Below, piece by piece: positions 9,556 through 64,000 of a DNA stretch of 64,000 nucleotides. A model generated the notes under the pieces. It was not told the origin of the DNA. It searched no databases and worked only from the letters and a program-made list of their open reading frames with translations. Position 1 is the stretch's first letter; the number at the start of each line of letters is the position of its first letter. Origin of the DNA: Pseudorhodobacter turbinis (GTDB taxonomy: Bacteria; Pseudomonadota; Alphaproteobacteria; Rhodobacterales; Rhodobacteraceae); the NCBI RefSeq assembly GCF_005234135.1, contig NZ_CP039966.1, positions 6,155-70,154 on the forward strand, read 5' to 3'. Position numbers and translations under genes: made by a program.

Positions 9556-9579
9556 CATAGCCTGTTGAAAAATAATTGA

Positions 9580-9613: not shown

Positions 9614-9637
9614 GTACTTTTCAAAGTGAGGCTGGTT

Positions 9638-15973: not shown

Positions 15974-15984
15974 AAGGCTTGAAC

Positions 15985-19809: not shown

Positions 19810-19852
19810 CGGTATTTTTCCTGTCCACATGCAATGTCTGCCGGGGGGCGGG

Positions 19853-20488
19853 TTATTCAAACAAGCGGCGTTGCGGTACAACGATCACATCCCCGTCCAT
19901 CAATTTGGCGCGACTGCTTTGCTTGCCTGCCTCGATCATGGGGTAGTTCAAAGTATAGACGCTCTCGGCCTGGGTCTTGGGGTTGGTACGGCGCAGCTGG
20001 ATACGCTTGGTTGCCGCGAATTTTGTAAAACCGCCCATGACAGCGAACATCTGCAACACGCTTGTGTTGGGGGTCACGTCCAGTTTACCGGGCTTGTTTA
20101 CCTCACCCATCACATAGACAGAGATGCTAGCCGCAGCGCCACCCGTGCGTGCTTCGGCTAGCCGCTCAAGGCTGACAAACACATTGGGGGTTGCCGCAAA
20201 ACTGCTTGCCAGACGCTGTGTCAGGCTGTTTTGCACGGTTTCAACTGTCTGCCCCGAAGCCCGCAGCGTTCCCGCCGAGGGAACCGAGATGCGCCCGTCG
20301 GGGGCGACCAGAACGGTCCGGTTCAGGCTGGAATCTTCCAGTACTTCGATGCGTAGGGTATCCCCCGCACGGATTTTGTAGCTTTGGGCCGCAGCGGGAC
20401 CGGCGATCAGAAGCGCCGCGATGCCGATGGCAAAGGCAGCCTTCATCATTGCAAAGAGATATGAGACAGCAGAAATAGAGCGGGTCAT
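19853..20488 (-). CDS. Polysaccharide export protein (Wza/GumB-like)
   Basis: 211 residues; AAAGGAT ribosome site. Signal peptide to about AGPAAAQ (residues 1-35), with no lipobox Cys, unlike Wza itself. Poly_export domain: YKIRAGDTLRIEVLEDSSLN, RTVLVAPDGRISVPSAGTL and SLTQRLASSF; one SLBB-like domain: SVYVMGEVNKPGKLDV, MFAVMGGFTKFAA and DGDVIVVPQRRLFE. It forms the periplasmic ring that conducts polysaccharide to the outer membrane, working with the Wzz-like protein at 25329. Its short length with a single SLBB domain matches GumB/ExoF-type proteins; the beta-barrel gene downstream may supply the outer-membrane part. Confidence 0.9.
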   Translation of the reverse strand: MTRSISAVSYLFAMMKAAFAIGIAALLIAGPAAAQSYKIRAGDTLRIEVLEDSSLNRTVLVAPDGRISVPSAGTLRASGQTVETVQNSLTQRLASSFAATPNVFVSLERLAEARTGGAAASISVYVMGEVNKPGKLDVTPNTSVLQMFAVMGGFTKFAATKRIQLRRTNPKTQAESVYTLNYPMIEAGKQSSRAKLMDGDVIVVPQRRLFE

Positions 20489-23141: not shown

Positions 23142-23264
23142 GGGGCTCACTTAAAACAGGAAACTAACTCGATCGGGCCTCAGACGGATGCCGATAGGGG
23201 CTATTATAGGGGCAACATTCTATAGAAATCGTGAAAGTTCAAGGTGGCTACTGTGATCCGAGGG

Positions 23265-23945
23265 TCAATATCCCGTTGCTTTCAAAACCACACGGACGGT
23301 TGCCGCCAGAATGCGGGTATCATGCGCCAAGGACAGGTCTTTGTTATAGGCCGTATCAAACGCCGCACGATCCGCAAAGGTTGACTCGTTGCGCTCGGAA
23401 ACTTGCCAGCTGCCGGTAATGCCCGGGCGCAGTTCATAATAGTCGTGACCGGGGTAAATCGCTTGTTGCGATGGCATCATCGGGCGGGGGCCGACAAGGC
23501 TCATATCGCCGCGTAAGACGTTCCAAAGCTGGGGCAATTCATCCATGGACGAACGGCGCAGCAGCTTGCCGAACCGTGTGATACGCGGGTCGGATTTCAG
23601 TTTTTGATCGCGCACCCATTCGGCCCGCGCGTCGGCATTACTGGCCAGATAGGCTTCCAGCTTGCTTTCCGCATTCACAACCATGGAACGCAGTTTCCAC
23701 ATTTTATAGAGCTTGCCCTGCGCGCCGACCCGACTTTGAACATAGAAGGGATTGGCACCGTCACGGGCAATCAAAAGCGCTAGTATGGCAATAATGGGAA
23801 CCACAAAAGGGGCAGTCAATAACACGATGACGATATCGAGGACCCGCTTCCCGCCGTTGCGGTAAGGTTTTTTGGATGCCCGCTCGGGCGTAACACGAAC
23901 AGCGCGCTGCGCTTGTTCGGATGTTTCGCTATAATGAACTGTCAT
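23265..23945 (-). CDS. Priming sugar transferase (undecaprenyl-phosphate sugar-1-P transferase)
   Basis: 226 residues from ATG 23945. One N-terminal membrane segment (VLDIVIVLLTAPFVVPIIAI), then the bacterial sugar transferase domain: YKMWKLRSMVVNAE, ITRFGKLLRRSSMDELPQL, and WNVLRGDMSLVGPRPM. It transfers a sugar-1-phosphate from a nucleotide sugar to undecaprenyl phosphate at the inner membrane, the first step in building the repeat unit. Short form without the N-terminal multi-span domain, like ExoY or EpsL. It is divergent from the ATPase/Wzz/kinase operon, so assembly genes on both sides share a control region. Confidence 0.9.
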   Translation of the reverse strand: MTVHYSETSEQAQRAVRVTPERASKKPYRNGGKRVLDIVIVLLTAPFVVPIIAILALLIARDGANPFYVQSRVGAQGKLYKMWKLRSMVVNAESKLEAYLASNADARAEWVRDQKLKSDPRITRFGKLLRRSSMDELPQLWNVLRGDMSLVGPRPMMPSQQAIYPGHDYYELRPGITGSWQVSERNESTFADRAAFDTAYNKDLSLAHDTRILAATVRVVLKATGY

Positions 23946-24387
23946 ATCCAACCAATTTTTTCAGTATCAAAATTACCTCCCCTGTCAGGCAGGGGCGCAC
24001 AGACACGCGGTGCAACAGGCAGTCGTTTTTTGCCCCTTTGGTCCACGCAAACAGCCACTGGCCTCAAGGGGAGTCCGGCCGTCATGCAAAGCTTTTATCA
24101 AGAACAAAGCCAACATCAAAGTTTTTAATAAAATAGATTAAAATTCGGCGTACTTTCCGACAGTGTTCTCCTATTTTGGAAATTGTTAACAGGAAGGAAA
24201 CCCTGAGCCTGGAAGTTGTCGCCTGTGGGTGTCTTTTTAGACAATACAGGCAAAAAACAGGGGATAACGGTTGCGTTTGGCCATAAAAATCGTCATTTGA
24301 TCGCATAAAGCGGATGATAGTATCCTTGGTCGCGTTACGTAGCATTGTCATAGTGCGATCGCCTGATTTGAAAGTCCCCGAGTTGGC
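23946..24387. promoter_or_regulatory. Divergent control region between export operons
   Basis: 442 bases between the minus-strand sugar transferase operon and the plus-strand ATPase operon; both need promoters here. It holds an inverted repeat CCCCTG/CAGGGG at 23979-23984 and 23990-23995 in the leader of the sugar transferase, and several AT-rich blocks (24110-24180). I could not fix promoter boxes with confidence and see no ORF of note. Confidence 0.45.
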
Positions 24388-25326
24388 ATGAATAGTACCC
24401 TCGACATCTACACTCAGTTTTTCGGATTGTCGGAGCGGCCATTCTCGCTGGTTCCCGATCCTGATTTTCTGTACTGGTCGGGGCCGCACAAACGGGCCTA
24501 TTCGATGCTGGAATACGGTATCGTTACACGCGCTCCCATCACATTGATCACGGGCGAAGTGGGGGCAGGGAAAACGACATTGCTGCACCACTTGCTGAAA
24601 TCAGTGGATGATACGGTTCAGATCGGGATGATTGCAAACCCGCATGGTGGTCGCGGAGAGCTGTTGCGCTGGGTGCTTTTGTCACTGGGGCAAGAGGCCC
24701 GCGCAGATGAAGACTATGTGGACCTCTTTGGTCGGTTCCAAGCTTATCTGATCGCGCAATATGCCGCGAACCGCCGGGTTATCCTGATTTTTGACGAGGC
24801 GCAGACCATGACCCGCGAGTCCCTTGAGGAGCTGCGGATGTTCACCAATATCAACGCCAACAAGGATGAGCTGTTGCAGCTCGTTCTGGTGGGGCAGCCC
24901 GAATTGCGGGATCTGGTGCGCCGTCCCGACTTGCGCCAATTCGCGCAGCGGGTCTCTTCGGCGTTCCATCTGCCCGCGATGGATGTGGCAACCGTGCGCA
25001 AGTACATCTCGCACCGTATGTCCAAAGCCGGCGCGACCCATGAAATCTTCCAGATCAAAGCGCGCGATCTTATCTTTGAGGCATCGCGCGGAGTTCCGCG
25101 CCTTGTAAACCAACTTTGCGATCTTGCCTTGGTTTATGCCTTTACCAAAGGTAATAAAACTGTCACGCGCTTGACCGTTCAACAGGTGTTGGATGATGGC
25201 GTGTTTTTTATCGATACTTTGGATGATCCAGATGCGCAGGGACCGGATTCCTCTTCGGGCACAAGCGATCCTGGAAAATCCTCGACTTTGGTGCTGCAAG
25301 GGCACCAGAAAATAAAGGCAGACTGA
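24388..25326 (+). CDS. ExeA-like AAA ATPase of exosortase/EPS locus
   Basis: 312 residues. AAA_22/ExeA-type ATPase: FFGLSERPFSLVPDPDFLYW at the start, Walker A GEVGAGKT at 56-63, Walker B VILIFDEAQ at 131-139, sensor-like LQLVLVGQPELRDLVRR, then a winged C-terminal part (GVPRLVNQLCDLALVYAF). This is the 'XrtA/PEP-CTERM system-associated ATPase' type, found with Wzz and kinase genes in exosortase-linked EPS loci. It is followed after 2 bp by the Wzz-like gene, so it is co-transcribed. It probably energises or regulates assembly of the export complex; the mechanism is not established. Confidence 0.9.
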   Translation: MNSTLDIYTQFFGLSERPFSLVPDPDFLYWSGPHKRAYSMLEYGIVTRAPITLITGEVGAGKTTLLHHLLKSVDDTVQIGMIANPHGGRGELLRWVLLSLGQEARADEDYVDLFGRFQAYLIAQYAANRRVILIFDEAQTMTRESLEELRMFTNINANKDELLQLVLVGQPELRDLVRRPDLRQFAQRVSSAFHLPAMDVATVRKYISHRMSKAGATHEIFQIKARDLIFEASRGVPRLVNQLCDLALVYAFTKGNKTVTRLTVQQVLDDGVFFIDTLDDPDAQGPDSSSGTSDPGKSSTLVLQGHQKIKAD

Positions 25327-25328
25327 GC

Positions 25329-26882
25329 ATGGACTTCAAATACTATTTTTCGCTCTTTCTGAGACGTGTACACTGGTTTTTGCTGTTTTTGGTAATTGGG
25401 TCGACCATAGGTCTGACTTTGGCCAAGGTGTTGCCGCCTGTCTACCGAGCCCAAGCGCGGTTGCTGGTGGAATCCGAGCAGATCCCTGACAGTTTGGCGG
25501 CCTCTACCGTGCAGACCGAGGCGACCGAGCAGCTTGAAATCATCCAGCAGCGCATTCTGACCCGCGACACGCTGATCGAAATGGCCAACCGCCTGAACAT
25601 ATATGGCGCGACCGAGGGGCGGCCTGCGCAGCGGATGGATGCGACAAAGATGGTCGATGACATGCGCGACCGTATCGAAATTGTGACGACGGGCGGATCA
25701 ACCCCGCGCGGTCCGGCGCGGGCGACCCTTGTTGCGGTCAGCTTTGAAGCCCCTACCGCGGCCATGGCCGCCACGGTCACAAACGAGCTGGTAACCCTGA
25801 TCTTGCGCGAAGACGTTAGCATGCGCACCGGTGTTGCGCGCCAGACACTGTCGTTCTTTGAGCAGGAATTGAGCCGTCTGGATAAGGAGCTGGCCGATCG
25901 CGGAACCGTTATTCTGAATTTCAAAGAAGCAAACCAGCAATCCCTGCCGGACAGTCTGGATTTCCGCCGCTCGCAACAGGCTGCCAATCAAGAGCGCCTG
26001 ACAGATCTGGAGCGCCAGGAAGCCGCGCTGCGGGACGCTCGGGCCCGCGCAGTCCGGCTGTATGAAGCCTTTGGTGGTGAGGGTGGCGTGTTGCCACGCG
26101 ATCAGACCAAAGAGCAGCAGCAGCTTCAGGGACTTCAGGATGAATTGGCCGCACAACTGTCGATCCTTTCCCCTGAAAACCCAAAGATCACCTTGCTGAA
26201 AGCCCGCATCAAAGCTGTAGAAGCAATTGTAGAGGCGCAACAAGCGCGCTCAGGCCTGTCGCAAGAAGGTGTTCCACAATCCGCCTATGAGACGCAACTG
26301 GCCGAGATCGACGGGCAGCTTGAATATATTACGGCCCAGCAGACCCGTGTTCAGGCCACTCTTGATAATCTGCGCCAGAGCATCGAGGCGACCCCCGGAA
26401 ACGCCATCACACTTGACACGCTGGAGCGGGACTACGCCAACGTGCGCAAGCAATATGATCTGGCTGTGGCCAACAAGGCCCGCGCCGAAACCGGTGATAT
26501 CATCGAGTCCTTACGTCAAGGGCAGCGGATTTCCATCGTGGAACAGGCCGTCACCCCGACAGAGCCGCAAAGCCCCAACCGGCCGGTGGTTGCCGCAGGC
26601 GGCATTGCAGGCGGCATGATGTTGGGCCTTGGCCTGGTCTTTTTGCTAACGGTGCTTGAGCGTGGGGTCAGACGCCCGGCGGACATCACCGCCAAGCTCG
26701 GGATTACCCCTTTTGTTACATTGCCCTATTTCCGCACCAAAGAAGAGATCGCGCGCCGCCGTGCAATCATCATTGCCATTCTGGTTGCCGGCTTGGTGGT
26801 CATTCCAATCGGTCTGTGGGCCGTAAACAGTTTTATTATGCCGCTCGATCAGATGATCGCACGGTTGACCGGTCGGGGCTGA
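25329..26882 (+). CDS. Wzz/GumC-like polysaccharide chain-length protein
   Basis: 517 residues. Wzz domain: FLLFLVIGSTIGLTLAKVLP membrane segment near residue 17-37, then PPVYRAQARLLVESEQIPDS. A long periplasmic coiled coil spans about 165-375 (RQTLSFFEQELSRLDKELAD, LERQEAALRDARARAVRLYE). A GNVR-like TLERDYANVRKQYDLAVANK precedes a second membrane segment at about 415-435 and, unusually, a third near 482-502 (AIIIAILVAGLVVIPIGLWA). It lacks a kinase domain, which is encoded separately by the next gene. It sets chain length and bridges to the outer-membrane exporter. Confidence 0.92.
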   Translation: MDFKYYFSLFLRRVHWFLLFLVIGSTIGLTLAKVLPPVYRAQARLLVESEQIPDSLAASTVQTEATEQLEIIQQRILTRDTLIEMANRLNIYGATEGRPAQRMDATKMVDDMRDRIEIVTTGGSTPRGPARATLVAVSFEAPTAAMAATVTNELVTLILREDVSMRTGVARQTLSFFEQELSRLDKELADRGTVILNFKEANQQSLPDSLDFRRSQQAANQERLTDLERQEAALRDARARAVRLYEAFGGEGGVLPRDQTKEQQQLQGLQDELAAQLSILSPENPKITLLKARIKAVEAIVEAQQARSGLSQEGVPQSAYETQLAEIDGQLEYITAQQTRVQATLDNLRQSIEATPGNAITLDTLERDYANVRKQYDLAVANKARAETGDIIESLRQGQRISIVEQAVTPTEPQSPNRPVVAAGGIAGGMMLGLGLVFLLTVLERGVRRPADITAKLGITPFVTLPYFRTKEEIARRRAIIIAILVAGLVVIPIGLWAVNSFIMPLDQMIARLTGRG

Positions 26883-26892
26883 GGAGCGCGTT

Positions 26893-27726
26893 ATGGAAAA
26901 GATTCAATCAGCCCTTGCCAAAGCCCGTGCCGAGCGTGAAACCACGGCACGCGGGGCGACCCCAGCGCCGATGCCCAGCGAAGTTCCGGTCTCCAATTGT
27001 GACGCAGACAGTGTCGACGCCGCCTGGAAGGCCCTCCCGGAGATGTCCATCAGTGCCGATCTGATGACGCGGAACCGGATTGTGGCCTTCGAAGGCGGCC
27101 GCGATGCAATGGTGATCGACATGCTGCGCACCCGCACCCTGCAGCAGATGCGCGACAACGGCTGGCGGAGGTTGGCGATTACCTCGCCCACTGCTGCTTG
27201 CGGTAAAAGTACGATCGCATTGAACCTCGCGCTAAGCCTGCAACGGCAATCCCAGATGCGCACCGTATTGATGGAGCTGGACCTGCGCCGCCCGTCGATG
27301 GCCCGTTTGACCGGCATCAAGGAAAACATCAGCTTTGGCCATGTTCTGGAAGGGACTCGCGATTTCCGTGATAATGCCCTGCGCTATGGCAACAATCTGG
27401 CGATTTCCAGCAATCCGAAGCCATGGCGCGATTCCGCAGAGCTTTTGAGCGGGTCAAACGTACAAGCGGCCCTGACCGCCATCGAGACAGAATTTGCCCC
27501 GGATGTGATGTTGTTCGACATGCCCCCGATGCTTGAGATCGACGACATGATGGCTTTTGCCCGGAATGTGGATTGCGTGTTGCTGGTGGCTGGGGCCGAA
27601 GCCTCGACCATCAAGGAAATCGACATGTGCGAGACCGAGCTGGCAACCCAAACCAATGTAATGGGCGTGATCCTGAACAAGTGTCGCTATATGGGTGCCG
27701 AATACGGATATGGCTATTACGGGTGA
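26893..27726 (+). CDS. CpsD/CapB-type tyrosine kinase (BY-kinase)
   Basis: 277 residues, GAGGAG ribosome site. BY-kinase ATPase: Walker A SPTAACGKST at 98-107, Walker A' VLMELDLRRP at 125-134, Walker B VMLFDMPP at 205-212. The C-terminus is a Tyr cluster with Tyr at 266, 271, 273, 275 and 276 (YMGAEYGYGYYG), the autophosphorylation tail. It partners the Wzz-like protein 10 bp upstream; phosphorylation cycles of the tail control polymer length and export. The split arrangement (separate Wzz and kinase) is like Gram-positive CpsCD and many exosortase-type EPS loci. A probable IS30 insertion ended the operon downstream. Confidence 0.92.
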   Translation: MEKIQSALAKARAERETTARGATPAPMPSEVPVSNCDADSVDAAWKALPEMSISADLMTRNRIVAFEGGRDAMVIDMLRTRTLQQMRDNGWRRLAITSPTAACGKSTIALNLALSLQRQSQMRTVLMELDLRRPSMARLTGIKENISFGHVLEGTRDFRDNALRYGNNLAISSNPKPWRDSAELLSGSNVQAALTAIETEFAPDVMLFDMPPMLEIDDMMAFARNVDCVLLVAGAEASTIKEIDMCETELATQTNVMGVILNKCRYMGAEYGYGYYG

Positions 27727-36826: not shown

Positions 36827-38140
36827 CTATTCGCGCAAGGCCCGCCGCAGATGGGAGGTGATGGGATGCAGCAGATAGGACAGGACACTGCGATGCCCGG
36901 TTTCAAGATAGGCCTCCACCGGCATGCCGGGCATCACAACAGCCTCTCCCAGCTTTTCCAACTCTTCCGGTTCCACCGCCAAGCCGACGCGGTAAAACCC
37001 CTGCCCCGTACGCGGGTCCTCGATCACATCGGGTGAGACAGAGGTCACATGTGCCGCCAGCTTCGGTATAAGTTGCGGGTCGAGTGAGGAAATTATCAAT
37101 TGAGCGGTTTGCCCGACATAGACCTGATCGATAGATCGCGGATCGACGCGCAGCTCGAAATCCATCCCCTCATCCAAGGGGATAATCTCGGCGATGGTGC
37201 CCCCGGGGGCCACGACGCCGCCACGGGTGGTCACTTGCATCTCATGCACGATGCCTGCGACCGGAGCGGGGATGTCAATGCGCGAGAGTTGCGCCTTATG
37301 GGTGATAACCTCAAGGGTCAGTTCTTCGATCTGGGTGGTGACCTCGCGCAGATCGGTGACGACACTTTCCTTGAAGCTACGTTCGGCCTGGAGGGTTTCC
37401 AGCTCGGCATCGCGGCGGGCATTCGCCAGCCGGGCCAGCTCGGCCTCCAGTCCGGCCAATTGCCCGGCAATCTGTGATTTGCGGTGCTTGAGATCGGATA
37501 TCTGGCTTTGACGGGCCAAGCCCTTTTTGATCAGGCTGGCCATATTATTCAGATCCCCTTCCAGCAGGGCGGCCTGATCGTGCAGCGCCACGATCTGGCC
37601 GCGTACGCCTTCGCTTTGATTGTCAAATTGCTGCAAGACCTCTTCAAGCTGCGCCCGTTGGCCATAGAGCAAGGCCGCGCGGGCGGCGAAAATCTCGCGC
37701 TGGCCCTGTTCGTTCGCGGCCCGATCTTGTGCGGGAAGGACATGGTCGCGGTAGTCGAATGTAATTTGTGTGGCCCCAGCCTGTTCGGCCTTCAGCCGGG
37801 CCTGCAAGGCCATGGCCGCCGCCAGACGCCTTTGGGCAATGCCCAGATTGACCTCCAGCAAGGTCGGGTCCAGCCGCAGCAATGTGTCATTCTCGGCCAC
37901 GATATCGCCGTCGCGGACAAAGATTTCTGCCACCAGCCCGCCATCAAGGGATTGGACCACCTTGGGCTTGCCATGGACCATGGCCTGCCCTGATGCGACA
38001 ACGGCCCCGCTGATGACGCTGAAACCGGCCCAGACCCCGAAAACGCCGATTAGGACAAACAGGCTGATCGCCGCGATCCGCTTGGCCCGGTCCAGATCCA
38101 GATCGGGCAAGGTGGCGGGGGTGGTGTCCAGTGTGCTCAT
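36827..38140 (-). CDS. prsE: Type I secretion membrane-fusion protein (PrsE/HlyD family)
   Basis: 437 residues. One N-terminal membrane segment (RIAAISLFVLIGVFGVWAGF) at about 20-45; lipoyl-like halves around GKPKVVQSLDGGLVAEIFVR and IDIPAPVAGIVHEMQVTTRG; a long periplasmic coiled coil (SQISDLKHRKSQIAGQLAGL, ELARLANARRDAELETLQAE); C-terminal HlyD_3 barrel (IDQVYVGQTAQLIISSLDPQ). It links the ABC transporter to a TolC-type channel. ATG overlaps the prsD stop by 4 bp. No TolC gene lies in the window, as usual for PrsDE pairs. The likely cargo is the nearby LamG/beta-helix protein. Confidence 0.9.
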   Translation of the reverse strand: MSTLDTTPATLPDLDLDRAKRIAAISLFVLIGVFGVWAGFSVISGAVVASGQAMVHGKPKVVQSLDGGLVAEIFVRDGDIVAENDTLLRLDPTLLEVNLGIAQRRLAAAMALQARLKAEQAGATQITFDYRDHVLPAQDRAANEQGQREIFAARAALLYGQRAQLEEVLQQFDNQSEGVRGQIVALHDQAALLEGDLNNMASLIKKGLARQSQISDLKHRKSQIAGQLAGLEAELARLANARRDAELETLQAERSFKESVVTDLREVTTQIEELTLEVITHKAQLSRIDIPAPVAGIVHEMQVTTRGGVVAPGGTIAEIIPLDEGMDFELRVDPRSIDQVYVGQTAQLIISSLDPQLIPKLAAHVTSVSPDVIEDPRTGQGFYRVGLAVEPEELEKLGEAVVMPGMPVEAYLETGHRSVLSYLLHPITSHLRRALRE

Positions 38141-40014
38141 GCGTGATACCTCCGGGGGGTAGAGGGCGTGCTTGGCGCGCGCGGCACGGCCCGCAGTTTG
38201 CGCAGCATATTGCCCGCGGCCGCCTGTTTATGCGGGCTGAGGTTGGTTGCCTGCACGGGGGCCGGTGTGTTGGCCTCCTTGCCCTTGTATTGCCCTTTAT
38301 ATTCGGTGGCCAAAAGCGTTTCGCGGTCATCAAAGGCCTCGACGCGTCCGGCATTCAGGATCATCAGCTTATTGACCGCAACAAGGACACTTGGCCGATG
38401 TGCCATGACGATCACGGTTGATCCGGCGGCGCGCAATGTCCGGATGGTATGGGTCAGGGCGGCATCACCGTTCCGGTCCAGATTGGCATTGGGTTCATCC
38501 AGCACAACCAGACGTGGCATGCCGAAAACAGCCCGCGCCAGCCCCAGTCGTTGCAACTGCCCACCCGAGAGCATCGGCGGGCTCTGCGGATCGCTCAAAC
38601 GCGTGGCATAGCCATCCGGGAGTTTAAGGATCATACTGTGAATGCCCGTCAGCGTCGCGGCCGCGATCACATCGGCATCCTGTGCCTTGGGGTCAAAACG
38701 AGCGATATTGTCGCGGATCGTGCCGGGCAACATCTCTAGCATCTGTGGCAAATAGCCGATCTGGCGGCCAAGTTGTTCGGGGTCCCATTGGTCTAGGGTG
38801 GCCCCGTCAAGGCGCACCTCACCGCTGTCGCTGTGCCCTGCCCCGACCAAAATCCGCGCCAGCGTGGATTTACCGCTGGCCGAATTTCCGATCACACCCA
38901 TGGCGTCGCCGGGCGCCAGGGCAAAGGCGATGTCAGAGAGGATTTTGACCGGATCGGTTCCGGGCTGACTGGGGGCCAGTTTGGTCAAGCCGCTGACCGA
39001 TATCTTGCCGGTGGGATCGGGCAAGGCAATGCGGGCAGGCTCCGGCCGCGCGGCATCAAAGGTGGACAGTAGCCGCTTATGCGCCGCACCGGCCCGCCCG
39101 ATGACCCGCCATTGCCCGATCAGCTGATCCACCGGAGCTAGTGCGCGCCCCGACAGCACAGAGCTGGCAATGATCATGCCGCCCGACATTTCCCCCCGGA
39201 TTACCAAAAGCGCGCCAAGGGTCAGGATGGCCGATTGCAGCAACATCCGGAAGGCGCGGCTGGTGGCGGCAAGCACCTCAGAGGGGTCACTACCCGCCTG
39301 GGCACTGGCCAGCGCCGCGCGGTGCAGCCGTTGCCAATGCGCTGAAATACTGGCCTGCATACCCATCGCCTCAATCGCTTCGGCATTGCGGGCGCTGCGA
39401 TCGATAAAGTTACGTTCGGCACTATCCAGTTCGACGCTTTGGGAAATATTCGGACGCATCACGGCACGGTTGACCAGAGCGATCGCCACCCCGACGCCCG
39501 CCCCTGCGATGGTCAGCAAGCCCAACCAAGGGTGGATCAAGAACAGCACTCCCAGAAAGAGCGGTACAAAAAGAACATCCGCCATGGAGGCCACAACCGG
39601 CCCCGACAAGAACCCGCGCAACGTATCCAGATCATGCATCACCTGTGCATCCGAACCCTTGCCCCCGCCGGGCAGGCCTGCACGTAGCCACATGCGAAAG
39701 GCAGGGCCACTGAGGTGATTATCAAGCTGCAAAGCGATGCGCGACAAAACCCGTGTGCGCAGGAAATCATAAAGCCCGAGAAAGGCGAAAAGCACGATCA
39801 CAATGGCAAAAAGCACAACCAGCGTTGGCACAGACCCACCCGGCAAGACACGATCATAGACCTGCAACATGTAGATCGAGCCGGTCAGCATCAAAACATT
39901 CAGGACCGCACTCAACAGGATCACCCCGCCAAGGGATGTCCGGGCCGCCGCGATCGCACGCCGGTACGGGTTGTCTGCTATGTGTTGGCTGTCGGGGGCG
40001 TTTGCATTGGGCAT
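38137..40014 (-). CDS. prsD: Type I secretion ABC transporter, permease-ATPase (PrsD family)
   Basis: 625 residues from ATG 40014, which has AGGAGA 10 bp upstream. Six-helix permease domain (about 25-300; GGVILLSAVLNVLMLTGSIY, LQVYDRVLPGGSVPTL is the family signature), then the ATPase: Walker A GNSASGKST at about 376-384, signature LSGGQLQR at about 482-489, Walker B LVVLDEPNANLD at about 502-513. No peptidase C39 domain, so it fits exporters of proteins with uncleaved C-terminal signals (PrsD, AprD). An extra basic C-terminal tail of about 60 residues (PHKQAAAGNMLRKLRAVPRA) is unusual. Coupled to prsE. Confidence 0.92.
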   Translation of the reverse strand: MPNANAPDSQHIADNPYRRAIAAARTSLGGVILLSAVLNVLMLTGSIYMLQVYDRVLPGGSVPTLVVLFAIVIVLFAFLGLYDFLRTRVLSRIALQLDNHLSGPAFRMWLRAGLPGGGKGSDAQVMHDLDTLRGFLSGPVVASMADVLFVPLFLGVLFLIHPWLGLLTIAGAGVGVAIALVNRAVMRPNISQSVELDSAERNFIDRSARNAEAIEAMGMQASISAHWQRLHRAALASAQAGSDPSEVLAATSRAFRMLLQSAILTLGALLVIRGEMSGGMIIASSVLSGRALAPVDQLIGQWRVIGRAGAAHKRLLSTFDAARPEPARIALPDPTGKISVSGLTKLAPSQPGTDPVKILSDIAFALAPGDAMGVIGNSASGKSTLARILVGAGHSDSGEVRLDGATLDQWDPEQLGRQIGYLPQMLEMLPGTIRDNIARFDPKAQDADVIAAATLTGIHSMILKLPDGYATRLSDPQSPPMLSGGQLQRLGLARAVFGMPRLVVLDEPNANLDRNGDAALTHTIRTLRAAGSTVIVMAHRPSVLVAVNKLMILNAGRVEAFDDRETLLATEYKGQYKGKEANTPAPVQATNLSPHKQAAAGNMLRKLRAVPRAPSTPSTPRRYHA

Positions 40015-40148
40015 TGGATTTCCGTCTCCTATTCCGGTCACAGGCTAAAAAAGCGCTATGACTGGGAGGGGGCAGAAATCGGGCCGAAGTCGGACAGATG
40101 TTTAAGATTGTACCACAATGATCCGCACATAGATTAAAGGACGGACCC

Positions 40149-52127: not shown

Positions 52128-53525
52128 TCAGGATCGGCGTCTGGCTATATAGCGGCGCGTTTCTTTCATTGATGCCAAAGTGGCCACAAAAAGAGCACCG
52201 AGCATTGCGACCCTCATCCATACCGGAATATTTTCTAGACGGGATGCCAACATGGCAGCCCCGAGAAAGGCTGTGCTGGTCAGCACCGGCAACACCATCG
52301 GACCCAAGGCTATGCCCGGCTTACGGGCGACCAGAACACAAGATAGCACATAGCCCCCAGCCTCGCCGATAATCGCGATCATAATAACAACAAATACGCC
52401 TGCCCCTTGGGTCACCGCATACCATGCCAACGGCAATACCGCGATACGTATCAGATTGGCTTGCATTGCATTGCCCGTATGCCCGCTTGATAGTGCAATG
52501 GTCGCCGCGCCCGCTCTAGCAACCCGGGCGGCTTGCATGATCGCCAACGGTAGCAATATCGGGATCAACGTAAGGTACTTCGGGCCCAAAAGAACCTGCA
52601 CCAACAAATCTCTGAACAGAAAGACACCAAAAACCAGGAACAACCCCATGACGATGCTGATCTGCATAACAACTATCGACAGGTACTGAAACCGGTCACG
52701 CCCGGCCTCTGTACTGCGGTCCAGTCCGGACAGAGGCGGAAGAAAAAAGTTCTGCGACGATTGGGTCATCACAAGCATTGGCGTCAGCGTTAGGGTGAAC
52801 CCCATGGCAAAGATCGCCAGTGTATCCATACCTAGTTCACGCCCGACAACCACTTTATCGCCTTGAAAGATGCCAAACAGCAAGATGCCATTTACCAGCA
52901 ACGGCCAGCCAAAACGCAGGGATTGCGCCATGACGTGACGGTCCAGAATCAGCCGGTAGGGCCGCTCGGCGACAAGATGCGAAACCACGGCCGTCATTCC
53001 CACCTGAATAAGAATGGCATAGAGCATCACCTTGTAATCGCCATAGATGATGGCCAAAGGCCAGACTGCCAGAACCGACAGCAATGCAGGCACCACCCCC
53101 GTCAGGATCAATGGCCAGAACACCATCGAGCGGTTCATCCGGTGGATATCGAAATGCTTCAGCGCGTTCAGCACCGGCACCAGCGCCATGAGTTGATATG
53201 CCCAGGTCGCTTCGGGCACATTCAGGAAATCCGTCAATGTCCCGGCCAAGAAAAACAGCACCGCGCCCGCGAACACTCCGCGCAGCACCTGAAACCCCTG
53301 AAGCGCTGCTTGGAACCGTGGATCCTCGCCGTTTTTGGCTTGTACGATCTGCTGCTGCAAACCAAGGTTTGACATCATTTCAACCAAGGCCATGGCAATG
53401 GCGAAAGTCGATGCGATGCCATAATCCGCCACCGGGATCAGCCGTGCGATAATCAGGTTGCGCGCCAACAACAACAATGAAGCCGTCGCATTGCCAGATA
53501 GGATCAAAAGGGCAGATTTCAACAT
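52128..53525 (-). CDS. Wzx-type polysaccharide flippase
   Basis: 465 residues from ATG 53525; the frame is open to 53615 but the extra part is not membrane-like. MOP-superfamily polysaccharide transporter with about twelve to fourteen helices: SALLILSGNATASLLLLARN, LIIARLIPVADYGIASTFAI (the typical helix 1 and loop), LRFGWPLLVNGILLFGIFQG, VLPLAWYAVTQGAG. It moves the lipid-linked repeat unit across the inner membrane for Wzy polymerisation. Single gene on its strand, divergent from the nitroreductase-like gene with 179 bp between. Together with Wzy, Wzz and Wza homologues it completes a Wzx/Wzy-dependent pathway. Confidence 0.87.
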   Translation of the reverse strand: MLKSALLILSGNATASLLLLARNLIIARLIPVADYGIASTFAIAMALVEMMSNLGLQQQIVQAKNGEDPRFQAALQGFQVLRGVFAGAVLFFLAGTLTDFLNVPEATWAYQLMALVPVLNALKHFDIHRMNRSMVFWPLILTGVVPALLSVLAVWPLAIIYGDYKVMLYAILIQVGMTAVVSHLVAERPYRLILDRHVMAQSLRFGWPLLVNGILLFGIFQGDKVVVGRELGMDTLAIFAMGFTLTLTPMLVMTQSSQNFFLPPLSGLDRSTEAGRDRFQYLSIVVMQISIVMGLFLVFGVFLFRDLLVQVLLGPKYLTLIPILLPLAIMQAARVARAGAATIALSSGHTGNAMQANLIRIAVLPLAWYAVTQGAGVFVVIMIAIIGEAGGYVLSCVLVARKPGIALGPMVLPVLTSTAFLGAAMLASRLENIPVWMRVAMLGALFVATLASMKETRRYIARRRS

Positions 53526-53704
53526 AACGATACGGATCTGGGATAACCGCCCCCAAGTGGCACAAGGGATACCCCTAACCCCGCAAACACTGATTGTCGA
53601 AGGAAAAAACATCACATTCGCACTTTACCGAACAGCGTTGGACAATCCGGCGGAAATTGCGCTAAAATGGCCCTATTGACCCCACGATCCAGAACGGGAA
53701 GACA

Positions 53705-54905: not shown

Positions 54906-56081
54906 ATGACACAACGCCCCCTGCGCATCTGCCTGATCCTGCATTCCTCGCGCTCTGACAATCTGGGGGTCGGGGCGCTGACCGCCTCCGAAGTCGAAAT
55001 TTTGCGGGACGTTGGGCGCGACATCGGGCGAGAGCTGGAAATCACCATTCTGGATTGGAAAGACGCCCGCGCACCCTATGTGACCGGGCCGGATATCAAG
55101 GTAATTGATATCGACGGCACCATGATGCGCAGCCCAAAGGGATATTTTGCCACGGCGCGCCGCTCGGATCTGGTGATCGATATTGGGGCGGGCGACAGCT
55201 TTGCCGATATCTATGGGGCGGGTCGCCTCAAGCGGATGTTCTGGCTGAAGTATCTGACCCATCTGTCTGGCACGCCGCTAGTGATGGCCCCGCAAACCGT
55301 TGGCCCCTTTACCAAGGGCTGGTCCAAGACGCTGGCGCAGCTGTCGATGCGGCTGTGCAAAGTGGTTGCCAGCCGTGACAAGATGTCAACCGAGGCGGCC
55401 CGCGCATTGGGGCGTGCCGATGTCATCGAGGCCTCTGACGTGGCGCTGCGCCTGCCTTATGGTCCGCCTGCCCCGCGCACGCAAGGCGGGCCGGTCAAGG
55501 TCGGGATCAACGTCTCTGGGCTACTTATGGGTGGCGGATACAGCGGCAAGAATGAATTCGGCCTGACGATGGATTATCCCGACCTGGTTCGCGACCTCAT
55601 CACCTATTTCCAATCCCATCCCGATGGCTGCGAAGTGCATCTGGTGCCGCATGTGATCGTGCGTGAAGGCCGGATGACCGGCGAAGATGATTATAGTGCC
55701 TGCACCGACTTGGCCGAAGCCTTTCCCGGCACGGTGCTGGCCCCCTCATTCGCGTCACCATCCGAGGCCAAGACCTATATCGCCGGGCTCGACTTCTTTA
55801 TGGGCGCGCGGATGCATGCCTGCATCGCGGCGTTTTCATCGGGCGTGCCGGTGATGCCAATGGCCTATAGCCGCAAGTTCGAAGGGCTGTTCGGCTCGCT
55901 CGGCTATACCCGCACCGTCGATTGCACCACCGAAAGCGCCGAAGCGATCCGGACCAAGATCATCGAGGGCTTCGAGAACCGGGCCGCGATCAAGGATGAA
56001 ACAACACAGGCCTTGGCCAAGGGGCTCCAGAAGCTGGGTGCCTATCAGGCCGCTTTGCAAAAGATCCTGACCAGCGTCTGA
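54906..56081 (+). CDS. Polysaccharide pyruvyl transferase family protein
   Basis: 391 residues of the PS_pyruv_trans family (CsaB/WcaK-like): LILHSSRSDNLGVGALTASE at the start, DLVIDIGAGDSFADIYGAGR, VMAPQTVGPFTKGWSKTLAQ, VASRDKMSTEAARALGRADV, and FFMGARMHACIAAFSSGVPV, the conserved GARMHA motif near the active site. Members transfer pyruvate from PEP onto sugars as ketals, adding negative charge to EPS, as in succinoglycan or xanthan. Probable co-transcription with the nitroreductase-like gene. Acceptor sugar unknown. Confidence 0.85.
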   Translation: MTQRPLRICLILHSSRSDNLGVGALTASEVEILRDVGRDIGRELEITILDWKDARAPYVTGPDIKVIDIDGTMMRSPKGYFATARRSDLVIDIGAGDSFADIYGAGRLKRMFWLKYLTHLSGTPLVMAPQTVGPFTKGWSKTLAQLSMRLCKVVASRDKMSTEAARALGRADVIEASDVALRLPYGPPAPRTQGGPVKVGINVSGLLMGGGYSGKNEFGLTMDYPDLVRDLITYFQSHPDGCEVHLVPHVIVREGRMTGEDDYSACTDLAEAFPGTVLAPSFASPSEAKTYIAGLDFFMGARMHACIAAFSSGVPVMPMAYSRKFEGLFGSLGYTRTVDCTTESAEAIRTKIIEGFENRAAIKDETTQALAKGLQKLGAYQAALQKILTSV

Positions 56082-56091
56082 CCGTAGTATA

Positions 56092-57018
56092 TCAGCTTGC
56101 GTCCGGCCGGTTCCAACGGCCGGACAACCGCCCGGAATCGCCACCGGCCAGAAGCTGCAGCATGCGACGGAAACGGTGAAACCGGATCCGGGTCAGCACG
56201 ATGGCGGCTTTGGCCTTGTTGCGCAGGCCCGAGATACGGTCAGATGCAAGAATGCGCGCGACCTCAAACAGAGGGGATGCGATCATCGCCGCCGTTTTCA
56301 CCGCCCATTTAAGCCGTTTTTTCATGCTTTGGCGCACGCCCGCAAAATCATGGGCAATGTGACGATCCCATTTCTGGACTAACTGCCCGAAATCCTGACG
56401 CGCGGGGTGATAGACCTTCATGCCCGGAATATAGCGGATCACATGCCCGCCCCGCGTTGCGCGCTGACCCCAATCGCGATCCTCGGCCACCGACAGCCCT
56501 GAAAACGGGCCGACCTTATCCAGAACGCTGCGGCGCACCACCAGATTTCCGGTGCCGGTAAAGCCCTCACGGGCGATGTAGCGATCCATGCGGTAGGCAT
56601 AGATGCTTTCATAAGCCTCGATCATCGTCAGATTGTCCGGATCGACATAGGCAATGCGCACATCCCCCCCCAGAATTTCTGCGGTAGGGTCGGCCATTGC
56701 CGTTGCGGCCTCTGCCAACCAATCGGGATCGGCAAGACAGTCGGCATCGATGAAGGCCAGAACCCCGGCGCTGGCATGGGTCACACCAAGGTTGCGCGCA
56801 GGGCCCGGTCCCGGTGTCTCTTCGCGCAACAACGTGATGTTACCGGCCTCGGCGCAAATCTCGTGCGGCATCTCGGAGGAGCCATTGTCCACCACGATAA
56901 TTTCGTGCGGCTGATATGTACCCTGCCGGATCGATGCAAGACAGCGACGCAACAGATCCGGTTGGTTCAGGTGCGGTATGACCACTGAAATAGCTGGCCG
57001 ATCATCTAAAACGGTCAT
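56092..57018 (-). CDS. Family 2 glycosyltransferase
   Basis: 308 residues from ATG 57018 with AGGAGAT upstream; a longer frame to 57255 is non-coding in style. GT2 domain: ISVVIPHLNQPDLLRRCLAS, EIIVVDNGSSEMPHEICAEA, PGPGPARNLGVTHASAGVLA and FIDADCLADPDWLAEAATAM (DAD as metal-binding DxD). Conserved downstream SVAEDRDWGQRATRGGHVIR. C-terminal helix region basic. It adds a sugar to the lipid-linked unit. It faces the pyruvyl transferase gene convergently (10 bp) and is divergent from the acyltransferase gene. Confidence 0.88.
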   Translation of the reverse strand: MTVLDDRPAISVVIPHLNQPDLLRRCLASIRQGTYQPHEIIVVDNGSSEMPHEICAEAGNITLLREETPGPGPARNLGVTHASAGVLAFIDADCLADPDWLAEAATAMADPTAEILGGDVRIAYVDPDNLTMIEAYESIYAYRMDRYIAREGFTGTGNLVVRRSVLDKVGPFSGLSVAEDRDWGQRATRGGHVIRYIPGMKVYHPARQDFGQLVQKWDRHIAHDFAGVRQSMKKRLKWAVKTAAMIASPLFEVARILASDRISGLRNKAKAAIVLTRIRFHRFRRMLQLLAGGDSGRLSGRWNRPDAS

Positions 57019-57220
57019 ATGATCTCCTGAGGTTCGCACCCTCACGGCACGCTGGGACAGTTTTGCACAGAAATATGTCCATAAGGGTAATTGCGGGGCA
57101 AGAACATGCCGTTTTACGAAAAATTTACCTCTCGCCGAAAGGTCACTCTCTCCAGTTGAGTTGCGGCAAAACTTGATATTTAAGCACACAACATCCATCC
57201 GACGCAGGAGAGATTGAGAC

Positions 57221-57763
57221 ATGGCGTTCAAATACACCGGTAAAACGCCGGACACATTCTTCGAGGCTGTCCGGAATTATGGCTTGCTGGCCACATGCAG
57301 GACCCGGCTGCGGGATGTCTTTTTGCTGGTCAGGCGCTTCTACCTTGTGAAGGTCTGGAAAATGGATATTCACCCTTTCACCATTATCTCGCTCAAGGCC
57401 ACGCTGGACCGCACCTATCCGCAAGGCATCCATATCGGTGAGGGCAGCGCCGTGAACTTTGGCGCCGTCATCCTGACCCATGACATGGCCCGCAGCCAAT
57501 ATAAACATACACGCATCGGCAAATACTCGGCGATCGGAGCGCGCAGCATCGTGATGCCCGGCGTCACAGTCGGCGATCATTCCATCGTGGCCGCAGGGGC
57601 CATCGTCACCAGAGATGTGCCCGATAATGTGATCGTTGCAGGCAATCCGGCACGGGTAATCCGCACCGGCATCATGACGACAAACTTTGGCCGTATGACG
57701 GAACGGGGAACCTCCGTTGGCAAAACCTCCCCCCAGACGTCCGATAGCGACGCCCAAGACTGA
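57221..57763 (+). CDS. Hexapeptide-repeat acyltransferase (WcaF/NodL-like)
   Basis: 180 residues. Left-handed beta-helix from about 60 to 145: GIHIGEGSAVNFGAVILTHD, RIGKYSAIGARSIVMPGVTV, GDHSIVAAGAIVTRDVPDNV, IVAGNPARVIRTG, with His in LTHDM as candidate catalytic base. The N-terminal 55 residues contain a helical, basic part. These enzymes O- or N-acetylate sugars; here probably EPS repeat-unit sugars or nucleotide sugars. It is followed after 8 bp by the VanZ-like gene. Confidence 0.85.
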   Translation: MAFKYTGKTPDTFFEAVRNYGLLATCRTRLRDVFLLVRRFYLVKVWKMDIHPFTIISLKATLDRTYPQGIHIGEGSAVNFGAVILTHDMARSQYKHTRIGKYSAIGARSIVMPGVTVGDHSIVAAGAIVTRDVPDNVIVAGNPARVIRTGIMTTNFGRMTERGTSVGKTSPQTSDSDAQD

Positions 57764-58575: not shown

Positions 58576-59109
58576 ATGTTGACCAAAATTAAGACAACTC
58601 TGGCCGCTGTCGCGCTCTTCGCGATGCCTATGATGGCATCCGCTGCAACCGTTAATCTAGTTGATGGCGGCACGAATACAATCCAATTGGGCGACAACTA
58701 CGAATACCTGACAACGGTGACAACACCAGGCGCCGGTTTCCGTGAGTTCACGCTGACCTCCTCCAGCGAGATTGCACTGGCATCCAGCTTTGTTGCGCTC
58801 GAGTTCACCGGCGTGTTCAATAACCTGAAATATTTCATTGTCACAGCAGCGGGCCAAATTGATGCGACTGCAGAAGTTGCTTCCGGTCCTGTCCGCTCCT
58901 ACTCGCTCGACACCATCTTTGACAGCGTCAACGGCTACACCCAGACGATGAAAGTCACTTGGGACAGCGTTAACGTGAAATTGGGCAGCACCACAGCCCA
59001 GTTCAACATTCAGGCCGTTCCTTCCGAAGTGCCTGTTCCTGCTGCCGGTCTGTTGCTGATTAGCGCCCTTGGTGGTGTTGCGGCACTGCGTCGTCGTCGC
59101 AAAGCCTGA
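58576..59109 (+). CDS. Small VPLPA-CTERM (VPVPA variant) secreted protein
   Basis: 177 residues from ATG 58576 (GTGGGGG upstream). Signal peptide TTLAAVALFAMPMMASAA, cleavage near residue 24. The mature part is beta-rich, single-domain (FREFTLTSSSEIALASSFVA, YTQTMKVTWDSVNVKLGSTT). C-terminal sorting signal VPVPAAGLLLISALGGVAAL plus RRRRKA: a VPVPA version of the motif recognised by XrtD. A strong terminator follows, and the exosortase gene starts 208 bp downstream. Likely the principal substrate encoded beside its enzyme; function unknown. Confidence 0.88.
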   Translation: MLTKIKTTLAAVALFAMPMMASAATVNLVDGGTNTIQLGDNYEYLTTVTTPGAGFREFTLTSSSEIALASSFVALEFTGVFNNLKYFIVTAAGQIDATAEVASGPVRSYSLDTIFDSVNGYTQTMKVTWDSVNVKLGSTTAQFNIQAVPSEVPVPAAGLLLISALGGVAALRRRRKA

Positions 59110-59317: not shown

Positions 59318-60925
59318 ATGTCAGATACCACTACACCCAGTAAATGGACCGCCTTTGCGGCGCATGGTTTTAACCCGGCAGGCTTGTTCTGGATTGTTGC
59401 CCTGATCGTGACGGCCCTGCCAATTTACTGGCTGGGGCTGAAATCGCTGGGTGCCGCGTGGATGACACCGGAATACAGCCACGGCCCGCTGATCCCTTTG
59501 ATCTCTCTCTATCTGTTCTTGCGCGAGCTACGGCACGCGCAGGGCCATAAGGCCACCACCGCACCAAACCGGATCCCTGGCCTTATCGTGATCGTCTTTG
59601 CGATGGTCTTTGGCATCTTTGGCAATCTGGTACAGATCCCCGATATCGTTACCTATGCATTGATCATCTGGGTTGGCGGCGTGGTGCTGACCGGCTTTGG
59701 CTGGGATCGTGGACGGCGGCACCAATTGCCCGTGCTGCACCTGATCTTCATGCTACCTTTGCCGCAATTCGTCTATTGGAAGCTGACGATCGTATTGCAG
59801 TTGATTTCCTCCGAGCTTGGCGTCTGGTTTATCCAGCTGGCCGGTGTACCGGTGTTCCTTGAAGGCAATGTGATCGATCTGGGCGTCTACAAGCTTCAGG
59901 TGGCCGAGGCTTGTTCGGGGCTGCGCTATCTCTTTCCGATCCTGTCGTTCAGCTATCTGTTTGCGATCCTGTATCGCGGGCCGTTCTGGCACAAAGTGGT
60001 GATCTTCTTGCTGGCCGCCCCGCTGACCGTCTTTATGAACTCCTTCCGCATCGGGGTTATCGGCGTCTTGGTCAACAGCTACGGCATCGAGCAGGCCGAG
60101 GGCTTTTTGCACTTCTTTGAAGGCTGGATCATTTTCGGCAGCTGTATCGCACTTTTGTTTCTGGCGGCGGTTTTGCTGCAGCGGTTGACGCCAAGCCCGA
60201 TGACCCTGCGCGACACGATCGACATGGATTTTGACGGACTGGGCACGCAAGCCGCGCGCATTCTGGCCATTCCCGCCGCAAAGGGTATTATCATCACCGC
60301 CCTTGTCAGTACCGCCATCACCGCCGCTTTCGTCTTCACTCCGCCACCGGAACGGGTGAACCCTGATCGTGATCGCTTTGCGCTGTTTTCGCGCAGCATC
60401 GGTGAGTGGAGCTCTTTCAACATCCCGTTGGAGCCGAATATCGAAAAGGTTCTGGGCGCCACGGATTATATCAATTCCATCTATAGCTTGCCGGGCCAGA
60501 ACGACACTTATATCAGCTTCTTTGCGGCCTATTATGACAAGCAAACCGAAGGGTCGGGCATCCACTCCCCCGAGGTTTGCCTGCCCGTCGGCGGCTGGGA
60601 GGTCTATTCCATCGACCCCACCGAGGTTTCCTTTCCCGATACGGTCTATGACACCTTCAACGTGAACCGCGCCGTGATCGAAAAGGGGCTGTCACGCCAG
60701 CTTGTCTATTACTGGTTTGAACAGCGCGGCAGCCGGATGACCAACGACTATCTGGCCAAACTTGGCGTAGTCTATGATAGCCTGACCATCGGACGCACAG
60801 ACGGAGCTATGGTGCGCTTTGTAACGCCGATCGTGGCCGGAGAGGATGAATCCGAGGCCGATGCGCGGATGCAAGGGTTTATGGCCCAACTGCTGCCGCA
60901 ACTGCCGCGCTACATCCCCGAATAA
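59318..60925 (+). CDS. xrtD: Exosortase XrtD (VPLPA-CTERM specific) with fused EpsI domain
   Basis: 535 residues. Exosortase part (about 20-290, eight or so helices) with the catalytic triad visible: Cys199 in [13 protein letters not shown], Arg244 in [12 protein letters not shown] and His265 in GFLHFFEGW. The C-terminal 200 residues form an EpsI-type domain ([69 protein letters not shown]). The exosortase-EpsI fusion with this motif set matches XrtD, which cuts after the VPLPA motif at the inner membrane, releasing or transferring the protein. Substrates in the window end at 9555, 59109 and beyond 64000, plus a dead one at 28874. The start ATG 59318 has only a weak ribosome site. Confidence 0.92.
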
Positions 60926-60943: not shown

Positions 60944-61624
60944 ATGACTGGAAATCCTCCCCCTTTGCCGCGCCGCTTGCCCGTGAAGGGGGCTGCCATC
61001 CTGCCATGGCCCGTTGCCATGTTGCTTGTGATTAACATACTGCCGGAACTGGTCTTGCAGTTGGCGGATCGCGGCATCATCGCCACCCCGTGGCTGCGCA
61101 CCGCAGTCTATGCGCTCGGGGCGTTCCAGCCTGATCTGATGATCAAGCATGGCGCTTTTTTCTTTGGACAATCGCTGACGATGTTTTTTACCTACGGCGT
61201 GCTGCACACAGGCATGACCCATCTGGTGATCAACATGATCGGGCTGGCATGGCTGGGCCGGTGGGTCTTGCAATATCGCAGCTCCGAGACATTTCTGACC
61301 TTTTATCTGCTCGCCACCGTCGGGGCCGCCGAGGCCTTCGCGCTGATCGGTCCCGGCGCGGGGATGATGGTGGGCGCATCAGGGGCCTTGTTCGGCCTGA
61401 TGGGGCTGTATCTGGCCGATAGTGGCCTTCTTACCCCGCGTACCGATGCTTGGCACAGCCTAATGGGGCGCATCATCGGGGCAACGGCCGCGTTGATCCT
61501 TTCGGATATCGCTAGCTCTGCGCTACTGGGAAACCCTGTTGCCTGGCAGGCCCACGCCGGTGGTTTTTTGACCGGTGCCGCCCTTGGGCTGATCTATCCG
61601 CCAAGGCAACCGCGCCGCGCATGA
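60944..61624 (+). CDS. Rhomboid-family intramembrane serine protease
   Basis: 226 residues with about six helices. Rhomboid signatures: HLVINMIGLAWLG (His93 and Asn97, oxyanion side), catalytic Ser146 in VGASGALFGLMGLYL, and catalytic His204 in WQAHAGGFLTGAALG. Only 18 bp after xrtD, so co-transcribed. Rhomboid relatives called rhombosortases process GlyGly-CTERM proteins elsewhere, but no GlyGly-CTERM protein is seen here. It could cleave VPLPA-CTERM proteins or other membrane proteins of the system, or trim the remaining C-terminal helix. Such a role is inference; the fold is clear. Confidence 0.9.
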   Translation: MTGNPPPLPRRLPVKGAAILPWPVAMLLVINILPELVLQLADRGIIATPWLRTAVYALGAFQPDLMIKHGAFFFGQSLTMFFTYGVLHTGMTHLVINMIGLAWLGRWVLQYRSSETFLTFYLLATVGAAEAFALIGPGAGMMVGASGALFGLMGLYLADSGLLTPRTDAWHSLMGRIIGATAALILSDIASSALLGNPVAWQAHAGGFLTGAALGLIYPPRQPRRA

Positions 61625-63368: not shown

Positions 63369-64000
63369 ATGAAACTTTCCACATCCCTTAAATCATTTGC
63401 TGGCGCAATCGCCCTGACGGCCGTCGCGAGCATTGCAAGCGCGGCGACAACAACCTACGCAGATTTTACTGCAGTAGGTAACGTCACCTACACAGATAAC
63501 TCCCTTCTCTTTGGCTTTCCGACTGGCATTGCCGGAGGCGAAGTCGGTGGCACCGTATCGGCCAACCTTTATGGGGACACTGCAACAGCCCGCGATTACA
63601 CCCTCGAATATTCATTCGATGCAATGTCGGGAAGTTCCACGGATAACCTGTCAGGCGCCTTCTCATTGCCCTTCGCCTTCTCGATTGACAGCGTTATTGC
63701 CAGCCTGCCAACCATGCCATCAACCGGCGGCGGCATATTGCCCCTGCCCGCGCTTGGCGCAATTCTTAACTATAGCGGATTGGCAGTCACATCGAGCACC
63801 GTCGATAGCACCTTCACCTTCCAATTTGTTGGCGACGCGTGGGAAGACCTGCTCGTCAGCTTGGGATCTCCTGCCTTTCCTGATGATTTCACCGGCACCT
63901 ATGTCGCCAACCTCAAGCTAGTAGCAGAAGATGTGGCCCCTGTTCCACTTCCCGCCGCAGCACCATTGCTGTTCTTCGGCGTTGGTGGTCTGGTCGCATT
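63369..64000 (+). CDS. VPLPA-CTERM secreted protein (cut by window edge)
   Basis: At least 210 residues in the window from ATG 63369, with GTGAGGA 7 bp upstream. Signal peptide MKLSTSLKSFAGAIALTAVA to SIASAATT. The mature part is beta-rich and hydrophobic (FDAMSGSSTDNLSGAFSLPF, STFTFQFVGDAWEDLLVSLG). Near the end comes VPLPAAAPLLFFGVGGLVA, so the sorting motif and helix are present; the Arg cluster should follow beyond 64000. The third intact XrtD substrate. The 170 bases upstream are AT-rich and promoter-like, without identified boxes. Function unknown. Confidence 0.87.
   Translation, partial: MKLSTSLKSFAGAIALTAVASIASAATTTYADFTAVGNVTYTDNSLLFGFPTGIAGGEVGGTVSANLYGDTATARDYTLEYSFDAMSGSSTDNLSGAFSLPFAFSIDSVIASLPTMPSTGGGILPLPALGAILNYSGLAVTSSTVDSTFTFQFVGDAWEDLLVSLGSPAFPDDFTGTYVANLKLVAEDVAPVPLPAAAPLLFFGVGGLVA

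Follow-up and report, generated by a model that had tools for sequence, protein, structure and literature searches.

The stretch analysed here, 64,000 bases of Pseudorhodobacter turbinis DNA that we call the window, comprises positions 6155-70154 of the 70,154-bp contig C3 (NZ_CP039966.1) and carries xrtD, which encodes an exosortase specific for proteins with a VPLPA-type C-terminal sorting tail (VPLPA-CTERM). We consider it likely that C3 is a 70-kb surface and matrix plasmid of the RepA type, the XrtD of which serves substrates encoded on all replicons of the host genome (4.25 Mb, four contigs) in trans. The enzyme is a genuine XrtD and its replicon a genuine plasmid, an arrangement of an already known kind; the surprise is the split between an enzyme on C3 and substrates that mostly lie elsewhere, rather than the mobility of a whole system. 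Below, plain positions refer to the window and those prefixed with C3 to the contig.

59318..60925, plus strand: xrtD, VPLPA-CTERM-specific exosortase with fused C-terminal EpsI domain, 535 amino acids (TIGR04152, PF09721, PF11984)

The XrtD model TIGR04152 scored this protein at 687.6 bits, compared with a curated cut-off of 400, and covered profile positions 2-486 of 486. PF09721 (Exosortase_EpsH) matched amino acids 31-285 and PF11984 (EpsI, DUF3485) amino acids 328-532, and the fused EpsI domain, which the initial annotation had already proposed, was also matched by TIGR02914 (115.1 bits, amino acids 355-532). A Cys/Arg/His triad is typical of exosortases; the residues C199, R244 and H265 named in that annotation lie at exactly these positions and are shared by all 86 XrtD sequences, i.e., by that of the window and those of the 85 loci from the family sample introduced below. 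It is the sole XrtD of the genome and also the sole PF09721 exosortase found there; on the basis of this PF09721 search we rejected a chromosomal exosortase serving the tails, the observation that had been set beforehand as speaking against the initial annotation. The annotation of Tateyamaria omphalii plasmid pDOK1-4-6 (locus L260, 8564-10176) gives xrtD and the EpsI domain a gene each, side by side and unfused, and one genome has a second XrtD (G243:C6:10200-11669, locus L132) that is very divergent (458 bits) and sits on a very long tree branch.

Substrates were searched for with the tail model TIGR03370 (cut-off 25.35 bits), which led to the following features on C3:

8470..9555, plus strand: VPLPA-CTERM substrate 1 with von Willebrand A (VWA) domain (PF25106, PF00092); TIGR03370 30.8 bits (scanned from 8467)
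58576..59109, plus strand: VPLPA-CTERM substrate 2 (VPVPA variant), 177 amino acids; TIGR03370 30.3 bits (scanned from 58558)
63369..64000, continuing across the contig junction into C3:1-28, plus strand: VPLPA-CTERM substrate 3; the joined open reading frame is complete and encodes 219 amino acids
28793..28846 (C3:34947), plus strand: degenerate VPLPA tail in an open frame of 47 codons; 24.2 bits, below cut-off

The three tails announced by the initial annotation are all present, two of them over the cut-off, whereas the third, although complete across the junction and matched at all 25 TIGR03370 positions, reached 24.0 bits and remained 1.35 bits below it. Substrate 2, the start of which was picked by eye from the sequence, has a signal peptide-like N-terminus and is located directly upstream of xrtD. 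The degenerate tail, in the frame of which there is no complete gene, is probably what is left of a fourth substrate gene. Throughout the genome, the model gave nine matches over the cut-off (five on C1, two on C2 and two on C3) and 13 matches at E up to 10, while tails over the cut-off occurred in 0 of 14 control genomes and matches below it (E up to 10) in seven of these 14; the tails over the cut-off exceed what chance would give. We counted 11 credible substrates, namely the nine over the cut-off, C2:193863 and the third C3 protein, and left out C3:34947, on account of its short frame lacking a complete gene, as well as C2:579919 (17.8 bits, 67-codon frame). Eight of the 11 are encoded off the plasmid, by which we mean on C1 or C2, the two large contigs, of which only C1 has a dnaA match. 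The proposal of a whole sorting system on one mobilisable replicon is therefore correct in so far as the enzyme, three substrates and genes for exopolysaccharide (EPS) export occur together on C3, and incorrect for the majority of the substrates.

These findings suggest a role of C3 in cell-surface and matrix building, in which an EPS synthesis and export set is combined with the genome's only exosortase. According to what is known of the protein family, substrates would reach the periplasm via their signal peptide, and the VPLPA helix would hold them in the inner membrane until Cys199 of XrtD, together with Arg244 and His265, cuts at the VPLPA motif; the cut protein would then presumably be handed to the surface or the matrix. 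We infer the cutting of VPLPA tails by XrtD from this family knowledge and from the co-occurrence of enzyme and tails. XrtD would act in trans, on three substrates from C3 and eight from C1 and C2. With one plasmid enzyme serving all replicons, plasmid carriage would set the surface phenotype, and the host would depend on it for its surface and matrix traits; curing of this single replicon would reveal the fate of unprocessed exosortase substrates with the chromosome left unedited.

The plasmid nature of C3 and the question of its mobility rest on the following features:

15958..17028, plus strand: full-length RPA-type replication initiator RepA (PF10134, 301.9 bits)
C3:2460-3197: second RepA, truncated (Pfam model positions 85-227 of 228)
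25..408, minus strand: MobC-like mobilisation protein (PF05713, 26.6 bits)
C3:4329-6182: MobA/VirD2-type relaxase, just beyond the window (PF03432, 116.3 bits)
14040..15237 (C3:20194-21391), minus strand: 1,198-bp insertion sequence (IS) with integrase core domain; second copy at C3:3168-4365
9626..11134, plus strand: tetratricopeptide repeat (TPR) protein downstream of the VWA substrate (TPR families; PEP_TPR_lipo 116 bits, below the 312-bit cut-off)

An open reading frame continues in frame from the end of C3 into its start, from which it follows that C3 is a closed circle of 70,154 bp. Together with RepA this rules out that the window is chromosomal and bears out the plasmid location assumed initially, and the sole dnaA match of the genome lies on C1. 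The gene content comprises two RPA-type RepA genes, one of them truncated, ParA-like ATPases, MobC and the relaxase. RepA of C3 is 86.5-89.0% identical to the RepA proteins of three plasmids of 20.5-33.8 kb, and the relaxase has only two near-full-length relatives in PLSDB (54-56%). A megablast search of the 40-64 kb part of the window against PLSDB revealed no close relative of C3, only short IS-like or gene fragments.

A Pfam scan of 49 C3 proteins revealed no type IV secretion families; therefore, C3 looks mobilisable rather than self-transmissible and a helper would be needed. The two IS copies are 100% identical over 1,198 bp and in direct orientation, as found by self-comparison of C3. 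As the copy at C3:3168-4365 abuts the truncated second RepA, this arrangement suggests that C3 originated from the fusion of two plasmids via the IS. The copies enclose a 17-kb mobilisation unit with the genes for relaxase and MobC as well as the VWA substrate gene and the TPR gene beside it, and IS recombination could drop the relaxase and one substrate while xrtD remains. The joint mobility of enzyme and substrates that the initial annotation had put forward is thus plausible by virtue of relaxase and MobC, but fragile, because these genes and one substrate are flanked by direct IS copies and the scanned proteins include none of a type IV secretion family. In keeping with a fusion, xrtD is parted from the EPS export half by 26,540 bp of C3 that include replication and mobilisation genes.

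The expectation that exosortases are mostly chromosomal does not hold for XrtD. A tblastn search of PLSDB with XrtD returned 41 records, 24 of which match at 44.6-70.5% identity (22 annotated as xrtD), while the remaining 17 represent distant exosortases with at most 33% identity. One of the 24, NZ_CP061940.1, is a 24-kb record from sea water filed under Bacillus velezensis, in which an unannotated XrtD (62% identity) is covered to 75% in three pieces; this record may be mislabelled or contaminated. Of seven XrtD plasmids inspected, five have one or more genes annotated as VPLPA-CTERM within the part covered; six are typed as non-mobilizable and one as MOBQ. We further surveyed 345 Rhodobacteraceae genomes, each from a different genus, and found XrtD over the cut-off in 85. 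In 26 of the 80 XrtD genomes searched for RepA, xrtD shares its contig with an RPA-type RepA, and in nine of the 85 it is located on a contig larger than 1 Mb. On an XrtD tree computed by a quick method, with RepA contigs and large contigs as the two classes of location, seven location changes are needed, at least five of them forced by starred branches. The location of XrtD has therefore switched repeatedly, with a direction and timing of the moves that cannot be read from the tree. Near xrtD, 35 tail pattern matches were found in 24 of the 85 loci (1.57 Mb), compared with a median of 7 tails per genome; the two counts stem from different methods and at least three of the matches are doubtful (L075, L098, L131), and the apparent enrichment was not used.

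Relatives with tagged proteins but without the enzyme raise a testable question, beginning within the genus itself. Among nine genomes of the genus, seven of them well complete, only the C3 host (G000) has XrtD, and tails exist only in the C3 host and in one sister genome, G346; the other seven lack both. Six tail matches, five of them over the cut-off, were detected in G346, which has no XrtD. Five of the six proteins are apparent orthologues (by best BLAST only) of C1 or C2 proteins with 83-94% identity, and none of the six matches a C3 substrate beyond the tail. Across the five G000/G346 pairs, 145 of 151 residues are conserved in the tails vs 1041 of 1179 in the bodies (p 0.002), and in four pairs the tail is better conserved than the body.

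Family-wide, XrtD and tails occur together in 80 of the 345 genomes, XrtD alone in five, tails alone in 34 and neither in 226 (Fisher p 3e-44, ignoring relatedness; tail counts per genome are lower bounds, with up to 23 candidates scored in each). Six of the 34 tails-only genomes have another exosortase. One, G225, was initially taken as exosortase-less and then rejected as such, as it carries an XrtD fragment at a contig edge, leaving 27 genomes without any PF09721 match. These orphans correspond to 27 of the 114 VPLPA-positive genomes. At least three tails are present in 22 of them, and 10 are well assembled (40 contigs or fewer, completeness 99-100%, 4-21 tails), one of these consisting of a single contig with five tails. 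VPLPA tails are a variant of the kind of tail covered by the rule that every genome with such a C-terminal sorting tail has an exosortase, and in the Rhodobacteraceae this rule appears to fail. According to the reading that we prefer, the enzyme would be gained and lost along with accessory replicons, its chromosomal substrates being the more persistent part; in genomes lacking XrtD, the tagged proteins would stay unprocessed or be processed in another way.

Several observations weigh against this reading. In 50 of the 85 genomes the replicon of XrtD is undecided, and on the XrtD tree the locations are not clustered: shuffled location labels required a mean of 8.1 changes, and 102 of 500 shuffles were as low as the actual labels. 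One orthologue pair out of five shows no better conservation in its tail than in its body. Finally, the tails of the orphans are undecayed, with a median best E of 1.3e-10 in the 27 orphans vs 1.4e-9 in the 80 XrtD genomes (p 0.03), which fits a recent loss of the enzyme or a replicon absent from the assembly, and also another enzyme.

A rival explanation would make the orphans artefacts, in which the plasmid with the enzyme was lost in culture, unassembled or unbinned, and the pairing of enzyme and tails truly obligate. XrtD often sits on small contigs, in 17 of the 27 orphans four or more tails do not coincide with 40 or fewer contigs, several of these consist of hundreds of contigs, and G225 illustrates how an XrtD can be cut off by a contig edge; moreover, the 2006 PEP-CTERM paper proposed plasmid loss for such cases (PMC1569441). 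Missing plasmids in assemblies can thus explain part of the orphans. As a full explanation this is a real possibility that nonetheless falls somewhat short of probable, since it has to accommodate the 10 well-assembled orphans and since PF09721 recovered all 85 XrtD genomes, so that the search misses few.

Alternatively, an unrecognised enzyme outside PF09721 and TIGR04178 might process the VPLPA tail in the orphans, with XrtD as one of two partners. The orphan tails are textbook in sequence, as near to the consensus as those of XrtD genomes or nearer, and TIGR04178 was not found over its cut-off in any of the 28 genomes searched (the orphans and G225). We regard such an enzyme as unlikely: no candidate was found near orphan substrates, since in the closed orphan G237 two substrates arranged in tandem have metabolic or IS genes nearby, and XrtD presence varies among congeners within two genera, as loss or gain would give. 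For the orphan G121, which has 18 tails, the only congener compared has XrtD (one of two genomes of that genus). The general statement that either a second, unrecognised enzyme reads the VPLPA tail or the exosortase is a shared plasmid-borne accessory gene over persistent chromosomal substrates is one that we offer as doubtful and with corresponding reserve. The G000/G346 pair and the ten well-assembled orphans provide a direct handle on whether the exosortase is obligate or another enzyme exists.

The EPS genes of C3 are arranged in two halves, of which the export half lies next to the replication region and the other upstream of xrtD:

17311..18522, plus strand: family 4 glycosyltransferase of the EPS block (PF13692), 79% identical on Loktanella salsilacus plas1
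18541..19881, minus strand: conserved EPS-block protein without matching Pfam family; homologue in 39 of 85 xrtD loci
19853..20488, minus strand: Wza-type polysaccharide export protein (PF02563); homologue in 42 of 85 loci
20661..23150, minus strand: EPS-block TPR protein (TPR families); homologue in 47 of 85 loci
23265..23951, minus strand: initiating sugar transferase (PF02397, 196.4 bits)
24388..25326, plus strand: AAA ATPase (PF13401); homologue in 44 of 85 loci
25329..26882, plus strand: Wzz-type chain-length protein (PF02706); homologue in 42 of 85 loci
26893..27726, plus strand: CpsD/ParA-like kinase (PF10609); homologue in 39 of 85 loci
52128..53615, minus strand: oligosaccharide flippase (PF13440)
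54906..56081, plus strand: pyruvyl transferase (PF04230)
56092..57255, minus strand: glycosyltransferase (PF00535)

The nearest XrtD in PLSDB (70.5% identity) is that of Loktanella salsilacus plas1, which shares with C3 a flippase, pyruvyl transferase, glycosyltransferase, xrtD, glycosyltransferase, Wza, TPR protein, ATPase, Wzz and kinase, the first three in the same order upstream of xrtD; the EPS/xrtD set is contiguous on plas1, whereas on C3 it is split by 26.5 kb. Roseobacter denitrificans pTB2 and R. litoralis pRLO149_63 resemble C3 as RepA plasmids (63-69 kb) that carry xrtD together with polysaccharide genes and two VPLPA-CTERM genes, and pTB2 also in having a rhomboid and a VWA protein followed by TPR proteins, but their XrtD is only 45% identical, they are typed as non-mobilizable and, unlike on C3, the replication region does not interrupt their EPS export genes. 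The VWA and TPR genes of pTB2 have no sequence similarity to 8470-11134 at E 1e-5. In the main text of the R. litoralis genome paper, pRLO149_63 and pTB2 are presented as related plasmids for the cell envelope, without a single occurrence of "exosortase" or "PEP-CTERM" (PMC3141670). Jannaschia sp. CCS1 p1 (86 kb, typed as mobilizable, MOBQ) likewise resembles C3 in combining RepA with xrtD and a VPLPA-CTERM gene, but differs in its XrtD (44.6% identical) and in having other EPS genes. An exosortase on a plasmid is also found in Desulfovibrio vulgaris, for which the 2006 paper reports a plasmid that encodes four substrates out of five along with the exosortase, the fifth being chromosomal, and proposes that plasmid loss leaves orphan tails (PMC1569441). 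In contrast to C3, this plasmid, for which we examined the record of a related strain, has an exosortase of another class, PEP-CTERM tails, a separate EpsI gene and most of the substrates. Literature on XrtD plasmids was not found in an open-access search, which misses most subscription papers.

Two further groups of genes on C3 deserve mention:

60944..61624, plus strand: rhomboid intramembrane protease, 18 bp after xrtD (PF01694, 76.6 bits)
36827..40041, minus strand: type I secretion HlyD-like adaptor and ABC ATPase (PF13437, PF00005, PF00664)

The rhomboid might help in processing or recycle the cut-off tail helix. A homologue is present in 30 of the 85 xrtD loci, directly downstream and on the same strand in 20 of them as well as in the window, and rhomboids lie within the same EPS region on R. 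denitrificans pTB2 and Haematobacter pOT1-6. Such a function appears quite improbable given that a homologue is absent within the approximately 20 kb examined in 55 of the 85 loci and that the protein reached 45.9 bits with the rhombosortase model TIGR03902, for which the cut-off is 84; an assignment as rhombosortase was rejected on this basis. The rhomboid is thus a recurrent neighbour of xrtD outside the reach of the rhombosortase model.

Near the type I secretion genes, 28922-33100 (minus strand) encodes a secreted-looking protein of 1392 amino acids with LamG, PKD and beta-helix domains, the gene of which contains internal near-repeats of about 1.2 kb with 94% identity (repeats at C3:35232-37046).
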